Assembly: GCA_040881665.1 (NCBI GenBank)
Contig: JBBECT010000002.1
Span: 62,001-126,000 of the forward strand
Length of the DNA stretch: 64,000 bases
Direction: 5' to 3'
Source of the DNA: Actinomycetota bacterium
Lineage (GTDB): Bacteria > Actinomycetota > UBA4738 > HRBIN12
The position numbers were made by a program, and so were the translations under genes. The notes under the pieces are model-generated. The model was not told the DNA's origin, ran no database searches, and saw only the letters and a list, made by a program, of their open reading frames with translations. Below, piece by piece: positions 39,233 to 42,784 of this stretch (position 1 is its first letter; the number at the start of each line of letters is the position of its first letter).

Positions 39233-39358
39233 GGGGGCGATGCTACTCCTTCGGTGCGCCATGGCGTTCCCATGATGACCGCCTCGGCCAACTGGCTTCG
39301 GCCCGTGTCTCGGAGTAGGTTCCGCGTGGGTGCTTCCCGCGCCCGAGGGAGGCAGCCG

Positions 39359-40975
39359 ATGGGCAGGTTGCGTGCGGTCGTTCCGCTCGCGCTGTCCGGG
39401 TTCCTCGTGATCGGCACGACGTTGACCCTCGTGCCCGCCTCCGCGACCTCCGGCGGCAACGAGACACGAGCGGCCGAAACCTTCCGCGACGATCCGACGG
39501 TCCTCACCACGCCACAGCTGATCGACCGAGCAGCGGATCGCGGCCGCATCTCTCGGGCCCGCGGCAACCTGTTGCTCGCGTTCGCGTTCGCACGTCCCGA
39601 TCGCCTCCCCCCCGAGTACCGCAGCGACGCGCTCGCCGAGGGGACGATCCTGCTGTTGCGCCTGCACCGCGTGGCGACCCGTTCCACACCGATCGCGCGT
39701 CGGATCGCCGAGATGATCGGAGCCGGTACCCGGGCCGGGAACCGGCGCGCTCAGACCACACCGGGCTGCTCGAGCTCCACGACCCCCCTGCCGAGCACGA
39801 TCACCACCCCGCACTTCCTGATCTCCTACGACCCGAGCCGCATCGGCGCCGGCCTCACGCTGCAGGACTACGTTGCCGCGCTCGAGTCCGCCTGGGCGAC
39901 CGAGATCGACTCCTTCGGATGGGCCGCACCGCCGCCGGGAACCGGTGGAGGCCGCTACCACGTCCGGCTCGTCCGCCTGAAGGGGTTCTACGGGTATGTC
40001 TCACCCAGCGGCACCCACGCCGGCCTCGTCGGCGACAACCCGTCCACGTCGTGGGACGACGTCGACGCCTACGCCTCGTGCATGGTGCTCAACGCGAACC
40101 TGTTCGGCGTGTCGACACGCCCGCGCGAAGCTCTCGACGCGACCGCGGCTCACGAGCTCAATCACGCGATCCAGTTCGGCTACGGCGCCTTGATCGGCCC
40201 GGACCGACCCGACGACGTCTTCGTCGAGGGCGGCGCGACGTGGATCGAGGACGAGGTGGTCGACGCAGCGGACGACAACCACCAGTACCTGTGGCCCTCG
40301 TTCTACGATGCCATGGGCACCTACGCCGACAGCCCGTACGGGTACTGGGTCGTGTTCCGAGCATTGACCGAGCCGTACGGCGCCGGGGTCGTGGGAGGCG
40401 GCGAGGACGTGCTCCAGCGGTTCTGGCAATCGATCGGCAAGCGGAACGCCGAGAACCTCGATGCGCTCCGCGCCGGCGTCGGGGCCGAAGGCCACTCGCT
40501 CGGGGAGGCGTTCCACGCGTCTGCGATCCGGTTGCGAGTGCTCCGCACGTGCGGAGCACTGGCCTATGCCCCGCCGGTCTGCCTGGAGGAGGCCGGGGCG
40601 TACATGGCCGCGGCCGGCAAGCCTCCCCTGCACGGCAAGGTGACCCAGGTCGGCGAGAGCTACCGCGGCGGCGTCAAGGACGACTTCGGGCTGAACTGGG
40701 TGGGCATCCCGACCGGATCGATCTACCGGGTGCGCCTGGCGAACACCGCCGGTGGTGGCCAGCTCCGGATCAGCCTCGTCTGCGACGACGGCACCTCGGC
40801 GTCGGTCCGTCCCGCCTCGGAGGTCCTCGGCCCCGGGCAGGCAACCTCGATCCCGGACTTCGACGCGCGAGCATGCGCGTCGGCCTGGGCGGTGGTCACG
40901 AACCAGAAGCAGAACGGGCCGAACCCCTCCACCTCGGCGACCCGCACCTACGCCGTCGCGACCTCGCAGTCGTAG
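39359..40975 (+). CDS. Secreted zinc metalloprotease-like protein (HELNH)
   Basis: About 538 residues. It begins with a Sec signal peptide (residues about 4-29, ending ASA). After a helical pro-region and a linker with cysteines, the catalytic-type domain carries HELNH at 265-269 in ATAAHELNHAIQFGYG and a glutamate (E290) 21 residues later in VEGGATWIEDEVVD, a gluzincin-like pattern. The segment SYWVVFR-like (GYWVVFRALTEPYG) and C-terminal beta region (GLNWVGIPTGSIYRV) are shared with the next gene. The family resembles MXAN_6640-type putative metalloproteases; the substrate is unknown. The ATG is preceded by GAGGGAGG. It is divergent from the HIT gene. Confidence 0.72.
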   Translation: MGRLRAVVPLALSGFLVIGTTLTLVPASATSGGNETRAAETFRDDPTVLTTPQLIDRAADRGRISRARGNLLLAFAFARPDRLPPEYRSDALAEGTILLLRLHRVATRSTPIARRIAEMIGAGTRAGNRRAQTTPGCSSSTTPLPSTITTPHFLISYDPSRIGAGLTLQDYVAALESAWATEIDSFGWAAPPPGTGGGRYHVRLVRLKGFYGYVSPSGTHAGLVGDNPSTSWDDVDAYASCMVLNANLFGVSTRPREALDATAAHELNHAIQFGYGALIGPDRPDDVFVEGGATWIEDEVVDAADDNHQYLWPSFYDAMGTYADSPYGYWVVFRALTEPYGAGVVGGGEDVLQRFWQSIGKRNAENLDALRAGVGAEGHSLGEAFHASAIRLRVLRTCGALAYAPPVCLEEAGAYMAAAGKPPLHGKVTQVGESYRGGVKDDFGLNWVGIPTGSIYRVRLANTAGGGQLRISLVCDDGTSASVRPASEVLGPGQATSIPDFDARACASAWAVVTNQKQNGPNPSTSATRTYAVATSQS

Positions 40976-41083
40976 GTCCGACGGCCGATGTCGCGACCGG
41001 GAGGACCACCGGCCGGTTCGCAGAAGTCGGCATCGGTCGCTCAACCCGAACCCCCTGCCAGGCGATAACGTAGCCATCGGCGA

Positions 41084-41100
41084 GGGGCGTTGCCCGCCCC
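41084..41100. terminator. Possible hairpin between the two metalloprotease genes
   Basis: GGGGCG (41084-41089) and CGCCCC (41095-41100) form a 6-bp stem with a 5-nt loop, in the 186-bp gap between the tandem metalloprotease genes. It may end the first transcript or be in the leader of the second. No T-tract is present. Confidence 0.35.
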
Positions 41101-41161
41101 GCCTGCGACCGCCCGGATGACCGAGCGCTTGCCCCCGCAGCACGGGAGAGGAGAGAAGCAG

Positions 41162-42781
41162 ATGCGTCCCAAGTCCCGGTTCTTGCTCGTCGTGACGAGC
41201 GCCCTGATCGCCGTCGGGGTCGTGACCGCGCCCGCCCCGGCCGGTGCGTCTCCCGCGACCGTGGGAACGCCCGCCGCTGCAGAGGCATCCGCAGCCGAGG
41301 GTTCCACGCCGGATCTGCTCTCCGATGCCGTCCGCGACGGCCTCCTGTCCCAGGACGAGGTCGATCGGTACCTCGCGTCCGCCCTCTCCGGCGACGCGAT
41401 CCCCCCGCGGTTCCGCAGCGAGGTTCCGTGGGACGGCACGATGATCCTGCTCGCGCTGCAACGGCGCGCCGAGGCTGGCGACCTGCCCGCCGATGTCTCT
41501 CGGACGCTCGGGTTCGCCGGCACGTCGACGACCGAGAGGGCCGCAGGCGACAGCTCCAAGTGCGGCGGGACCGGGCCCTTCCCGAAGATCGCGAAGACGA
41601 AGTTCTTCAAGATCCACTTCGATCCGACGAAGATCCGCAGCCCGTTGAACATCGGTGACTACAAGGCCTCCTTGAACCGGGTGTACAGGTTCGAGGTCAA
41701 GCGGTTCGGCTGGTGGAAGCCACCGCAGAGGAACAACGCCGGCCCGAAATACCACGCGTACATCGCGAATCTCGGTTCGGGCCTCTACGGCTTCGCAACC
41801 ACCGGCGGCACCTACGGGGGGCCGGTGGGCAACAACCCGCACACGCCCTGGCCCGACGGGGACGCGTTCGCGAGCTGTCTCGTGCTCAACAGCGACTACC
41901 GCGGGTTCCCCTCCCGGCCTCGGGGCGCACTCGACGCGACATCCGCCCACGAGTACAACCACTCGCTCCAGTTCGGCATCGGCGGGCTCACCGGCTCCAA
42001 CTCCCCGACGATCGGCTGGACCGAGGGCGGCGCCACGTACATGGAGGACGAGGTCTGGGACACCGCCAACGACAGCTGGTACTACCTGTGGCCGCTCTTC
42101 AATCGTTCGATGTCGCGCTACGGCGATGCCCCGGCGGAGTTCCCCTACTCCTATTGGGTCGTGTTCCGGGCGATCGTGGAGCAGTACGGAACAGGAACGG
42201 CAGGTGGCGGCCAGCTCGTGATGCGCACGTTCTGGGAACTCGTGAGCAAGGAGACCGCGAGCAACCTCGGCGCGTGGGAGCAGGCGTTGTTCGACGCCCA
42301 TGGCGGAGACCTCGGCGAGGACTACCACGAGGCGTCGATCGCGCTGAAGTTCCTGAAGAAGTGCCGAGGCGGGTACGTCTATCCCTACTGCCTCCAGGAG
42401 GCGAACGGCTACCGGAAGACCACGGGGCCGAACCCGAACACGACCGTGATCGGCTCGGTCGGTGACGACTACGACGGCACCGTTCAGGACAACTACGCGC
42501 TCAACTGGGTCGGTCTGCCGGGCTCCGGCACCTACGACGTCGACGTCACGAACACCTCCGGAGAGGGAACGTTCGCAGTCAGCATCGTGTGCGACACGGG
42601 AACCGAGCTCGATCTCGTCGACACCGACGACGTGACCGACGGAGGGCCGCTGACGACATCGGTCGACGCCGACGGGTGCGTCACGCGCCCGGTCGCCGTG
42701 GTCAGCAACGTGACGCGAACCGGAGGGAACAACCCGATGCCCTCGAACATGACCTACTCCGTGGAGACCTCGCCCGCGTAG
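41162..42781 (+). CDS. Secreted zinc metalloprotease-like protein (HEYNH), paralogue
   Basis: About 539 residues, a paralogue of the preceding gene with the same layout: Sec signal (residues about 5-29), a helical pro-region (LLSDAVRDGLLSQDEVDRYLASAL), then HEYNH at 263-267 in ATSAHEYNHSLQFG and E288 in TEGGATYMEDEVWD, again 21 residues after the last His. Shared blocks include LVLNSDYRGFPSRPRGALDAT, YSYWVVFRAIVEQYG, and YALNWVGLPGSGTYDVDV. The cysteines around KKCRGGYVYPYCLQ are conserved in both. The ATG has GGAGAGGAGAG upstream. It converges on dnaJ with only 3 bp between the stops. Confidence 0.73.
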   Translation: MRPKSRFLLVVTSALIAVGVVTAPAPAGASPATVGTPAAAEASAAEGSTPDLLSDAVRDGLLSQDEVDRYLASALSGDAIPPRFRSEVPWDGTMILLALQRRAEAGDLPADVSRTLGFAGTSTTERAAGDSSKCGGTGPFPKIAKTKFFKIHFDPTKIRSPLNIGDYKASLNRVYRFEVKRFGWWKPPQRNNAGPKYHAYIANLGSGLYGFATTGGTYGGPVGNNPHTPWPDGDAFASCLVLNSDYRGFPSRPRGALDATSAHEYNHSLQFGIGGLTGSNSPTIGWTEGGATYMEDEVWDTANDSWYYLWPLFNRSMSRYGDAPAEFPYSYWVVFRAIVEQYGTGTAGGGQLVMRTFWELVSKETASNLGAWEQALFDAHGGDLGEDYHEASIALKFLKKCRGGYVYPYCLQEANGYRKTTGPNPNTTVIGSVGDDYDGTVQDNYALNWVGLPGSGTYDVDVTNTSGEGTFAVSIVCDTGTELDLVDTDDVTDGGPLTTSVDADGCVTRPVAVVSNVTRTGGNNPMPSNMTYSVETSPA

Positions 42782-42784
42782 CGA

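Follow-up and report, generated by a model that had tools for sequence, protein, structure and literature searches.

Among the systems described so far, the nearest relatives with tested activity form the Svx/AvrXca group of secreted gluzincins with the arrangement HExxH-x22-E (PMC9266454, PMC10815107). Svx is a demonstrated zinc metallopeptidase, the activity of which is abolished by EDTA and is 3.1 and 3.5 times lower in two mutants of the motif Glu (PMC9266454). It also possesses an acyltransferase-like second domain. A similar gluzincin motif is present in clostridial-type collagenases (M9) and aminopeptidases (M1), while DUF6055 (PF19527) is assigned to MEROPS family M106 (PMC11241649). 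One more family, NF045524 of NCBIfam (MXAN_6640 family putative metalloprotease), has a curated cut-off of 140 bits for the whole protein and a motif criterion composed of HExxH and downstream E-x-x-A-x-W/Y-x-E-D. The name of this wider family rests on the motif alone: no paper mentioning MXAN_6640 was found in the literature searched, and sequence comparison gave no relative with a solved structure.

Two adjacent genes approaching the last family were studied within a window of 64,000 nucleotides, which corresponds to C2:62001-126000 of the 2.46-Mb genome of an uncultured bacterium (7 contigs, 96% complete), probably a member of Actinomycetota to judge by its relatives and homologues:

39359..40975, plus strand: protein 1, 538 aa, candidate secreted gluzincin-type metalloprotease (open reading frame, NCBIfam match, conservation, model)
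41162..42781, plus strand: protein 2, 539 aa, paralogue of protein 1 (open reading frame, NCBIfam match, pairwise alignment)

Both reading frames lie exactly where the original prediction, made from the DNA letters, had put them, have the lengths given there and are on the same strand. The two products share 40% identity over 496 aligned columns, and a whole-genome search with protein 1 returned exactly two copies, proteins 1 and 2. The HMM search suggested at that stage as a check led to a family of putative metalloproteases (E about 1e-32 and 1e-28) and to no non-peptidase family. This family is NF045524, with E 4.6e-32 and 111.9 bits for protein 1 and E 7.2e-28 and 98.1 bits for protein 2, so that by score neither reaches the cut-off of 140 bits. 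The motif of the family is present in the pair, and its catalytic region aligns with both proteins, including HExxH and ExxAxWxED. Close homologues from the phylum sample also score about 113–128 bits, likewise below the cut-off, and hence the group is a consistent subfamily lying outside the reach of the curated model. It differs from the bulk of NF045524 in the position of the downstream Glu, usually +16 or +17 there and +21 here, and in six conserved Cys, mostly absent elsewhere in the family. Judged by these comparisons, proteins 1 and 2 belong to an uncharacterised sister subfamily of NF045524.

Other profiles connect the pair with known enzymes only indirectly. No Pfam family matched either protein above its cut-off, and the Phage_tail_terminator and FYTT hits, being below it, were dismissed. 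DUF6055 is common to 60 of 83 wider relatives, where it covers a stretch spanning the region of the catalytic motif, but protein 1 scored 11 bits (E 0.2) against its cut-off of 27 bits and protein 2 gave no match. Weak similarity to Svx/AvrXca was registered for 31 of the same 83 relatives, whereas neither window protein matched the corresponding model NF040510 (cut-off 625 bits) at E up to 1. Peptidase_M1 and Peptidase_M9 had weak profile hits in four relatives each and no direct sequence match to the window proteins. Because the pair passes none of these models and is connected with them via other relatives, its link to the tested enzymes is remote.

The predicted zinc sites are located as follows:

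40151..40165, plus strand: HELNH, residues 265–269 of protein 1, on helix 255–274 (sequence, alignment, model)
40226..40228, plus strand: putative third ligand of zinc in protein 1, Glu290, in helix 286–300 (invariant in 83/83; model)
41948..41962, plus strand: HEYNH, residues 263–267 of protein 2 (sequence)
42023..42025, plus strand: putative third ligand of zinc in protein 2, Glu288, 21 residues past the last His (sequence, alignment)

Four positions, His265, Glu266, His269 and Glu290, are the only ones without variation in the alignment of 83 relatives, which come from several phyla. Such invariance is far beyond chance and agrees with the originally proposed pairing of HELNH or HEYNH with a Glu 21 residues further on (the Glu of EGGAT in both proteins). 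The neighbouring Glu297 and Glu299 are kept in 75 and 56 of the 83 rows, respectively, and Tyr327 in 82. Retrieval of the relatives relied on a pair of peptide patterns, drawn around HExxH and around the Glu, respectively; 47 rows match the first pattern but not the second and yet keep the Glu, while 16 rows match the second but not the first and yet keep HExxH. The joint invariance is, therefore, not an artefact of retrieval. Identity of the spacing in two proteins, emphasised in the original prediction, is real but not special to this pair: the last His and the Glu are separated by 15–17 residues in most of the wider family, whereas a gap of 20 residues, which places the Glu at +21, is seen in 18 of the 83 rows and almost exclusively in the close clade. 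Since it typifies the whole subfamily, the equal spacing was inherited. A departure from the motif was noticed in relative L017 (G078:C21), situated at a contig end, where AYEYNH replaces AHExxH, so that the first zinc His is lost and the downstream Glu is kept. By its sequence this is likely an inactive homologue, and not every member of the family need be active.

Further arguments were obtained from the AlphaFold2 model of protein 1, in which the following parts can be delineated together with the N-terminus assessed by inspection:

39359..39445, plus strand: probable signal peptide of protein 1, ~residues 1–29 (PASA, a hydrophobic core and a basic start; residues 1–45 modelled with low confidence)
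39509..39718, plus strand: N-terminal helical segment of protein 1, residues 51–120, possible pro-region (AlphaFold2 helices)
40631..40972, plus strand: C-terminal beta domain of protein 1, ~residues 425–538 (AlphaFold2 model; weak fold matches)

With the sequence of protein 1 alone pLDDT was 32; the model computed from all 83 aligned sequences reached pLDDT 89.9 and pTM 0.88. Disordered residues 1–45 are followed in it by helices 51–60, 66–78, 96–106 and 111–120, a linker of low confidence (~residues 121–140), a catalytic region (~141–420) and a beta domain starting from ~425–434, which supports the C-terminal beta region expected from the sequence. In gluzincins HExxH and the Glu serving as the third ligand lie on successive helices. 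The same arrangement is predicted here: HExxH, invariant in 83 rows, is on helix 255–274 and Glu290 is on the next one, 286–300, so that the outcome which had been named as fatal for the proposal, a Glu unable to reach zinc, was not seen in the model. The N-termini of both proteins look signal-peptide-like on inspection, in line with the shared signal peptide proposed originally, and each protein may thus be exported. The helical segment that follows carries a conserved TPxLI..A..G motif and might be a pro-region that is removed. Six Cys of protein 1 (137, 241, 398, 408, 475 and 506) correspond in position to those of protein 2 (134, 239, 401, 410, 477 and 506) and are kept in 17–19 of 19 close-clade rows, which fits the expectation for proteins residing outside the cell.

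Foldseek comparison with PDB gave, among the best 50 of 1624 matches, no confident protease match to the catalytic domain. It found weak similarity (TM to target about 0.5) to the collagen-binding domain of clostridial ColG, the PPC domain of Bacillus collagenase and other beta sandwiches. Judging from their ~110–130-column length, these matches probably cover the C-terminal domain only, and likeness to M9 enzymes is limited to this part of the fold. In the viral fold library there was no protease either, and the short matches (~110–140 columns) have the size of the same beta domain. Sequence and profile searches gave no PDB match for either protein. Weak resemblance of this domain to binding modules, together with the lost His of L017, would suit non-peptidase homologues, i.e. 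zinc-binding or degenerate relatives acting as adhesins or binding proteins. Such a role is highly improbable for the window pair, since neither protein has lost any of the four catalytic residues, which do not vary among the 83 relatives.

Thus, prediction of the two proteins as secreted zinc proteases is sound, and they are enzymes of an ordinary kind. With good confidence one can assume that both genes encode secreted, disulfide-stabilised gluzincin-type zinc endopeptidases that form a six-Cys sister subfamily of NF045524 (MXAN_6640). Homology, residue conservation and predicted architecture of the pair underlie this assignment. In such an enzyme Zn2+ would be coordinated by His265, His269 and Glu290, and water would be activated by Glu266. 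Tyr327 is a candidate stabiliser of the transition state, and the C-terminal domain may position the substrate or serve as an extracellular anchor of the enzyme. Degradation of extracellular protein for nutrition is the most likely role. A bolder proposal, which seems rather unlikely, is that a distinct six-Cys subfamily of gluzincins, with members in Actinomycetota, Chloroflexota and Acidobacteriota, has a catalytic fold absent among solved structures and attacks a specific extracellular substrate, for instance a glycoprotein as proposed for Svx.

Two different substrates or expression conditions were originally suggested on the basis of a tandem duplication plus a hairpin between the genes, the copies having diverged (AAHELNH and SAHEYNH). 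Across 83 rows the variable position of the motif is occupied by F (75), Y (4), L (3) or W (1), and the L/Y difference lies inside normal family variation. The hairpin corresponds to one feature:

40982..41039, plus strand: intergenic inverted repeat, imperfect, lacking a T-run and not significant (repeat search, folding versus shuffles)

It is a weak repeat of 12 nt (83%) with a 34-nt loop. A 77-nt stretch folds 1.84 sd better than its shuffled variants, 11 of 200 of which are equal or better, and for the whole 188-nt spacer the excess is just 0.73 sd. No T-run, terminator or promoter signal was detected in the spacer, and Rfam gave no match there. A hairpin so weak and devoid of a T-run provides no basis for separate regulation, and the suggestion of two substrates or conditions was left without support. 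Specialisation of two secreted peptidases for separate substrates or conditions after an old tandem duplication appears somewhat doubtful. With 40% identity and each on a long branch of its own (1.14 and 1.62), the two have had time to diverge, a purine-rich ribosome-binding-like stretch lies immediately upstream of each gene, and the composition of protein 2 is the more acidic one (42 K+R and 59 D+E versus 47 and 52 in protein 1); against this stand the ordinary variation of the motif and the lack of a significant hairpin, terminator or promoter signal.

Tandem duplication as such, also part of the original prediction, could not be established and is only possible. In the subfamily tree, which is poorly resolved, the two copies occupy the above-mentioned branches and do not group. 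Forcing them to be sisters costs 6.1 log units (AU p 0.35), i.e. sisterhood is neither supported nor rejected, and protein 1 shares up to 48% identity with homologues from other phyla, more than the 40% it shares with protein 2. The pair lies in a segment of its own:

39233..42784, no strand assigned: segment holding the pair, between HIT (minus strand, start 39232) and dnaJ (minus strand, end 42785)

Being antisense to both flanking genes, it interrupts the conserved order hrcA-dnaJ-HIT-phoH-ybeY. Most same-family genomes have dnaJ directly followed by HIT and phoH on the same strand with a dnaJ-HIT gap of about 0–100 bp, and in families of the order that are further removed an RsmE-like gene (by inspection) can sit between dnaJ and HIT. 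Of the genomes of the class that were compared, no other carries the pair here; in two same-family genomes with a close homologue, the homologue and dnaJ are on different contigs. It is conceivable, if rather tentative, that the two genes entered the genome independently, or arrived from outside already as an old divergent pair, with no duplication in this lineage. The confinement of the pair to this genome at the dnaJ-HIT site, the patchy distribution in the class (homologues, remote relatives counted, in 11 of 27 genomes) and the higher identity (mostly 42–48%) of protein 1 with homologues from Chloroflexota, Acidobacteriota and other actinobacteria than with protein 2 speak in its favour, but the unsettled tree leaves sisterhood unrejected and the GC3 of the pair (0.90) is equal to that of its neighbours. 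A mobile carrier is not indicated, since searches against plasmid and phage proteins gave no match. The two edges of the inserted segment share just chance-level matches of 9–10 nt.

A scan of genome contigs revealed ~17 close homologues with 42–48% identity in Actinomycetota, Chloroflexota and one Acidobacteria genome, a few of them from genomes already found in another homologue search; the wider set includes Calditrichota, Geobacter-type and Nocardioides genomes. Of the 397 phylum genomes sampled, 36 contain a match of the NF045524 type at E <= 1e-10, which exceeds the cut-off in 17 of them; none of 14 control genomes contains one. Around 20 subfamily loci no neighbour gene recurs beyond antisense frames and closely related loci. 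On the sequence level, the expectation of an undercharacterised secreted metalloprotease is borne out by the NF045524 match, the invariant zinc-site residues and the literature search without MXAN_6640. The named family and the kind of enzyme are already known, and the broader biological surprise is small because secreted zinc proteases are common. With its intact sites, conserved Cys and confident model, the pair is a practical start for a first activity test and structure.

Tandem NF045524-type genes were also observed in two other genomes (G027:C19:170362-173138 and L069:4975-8871), hence side-by-side copies recur in the family. Two members of the subfamily (L003 and L009) carry long C-terminal extensions, FN3-type-like by inspection, which the window pair lacks.
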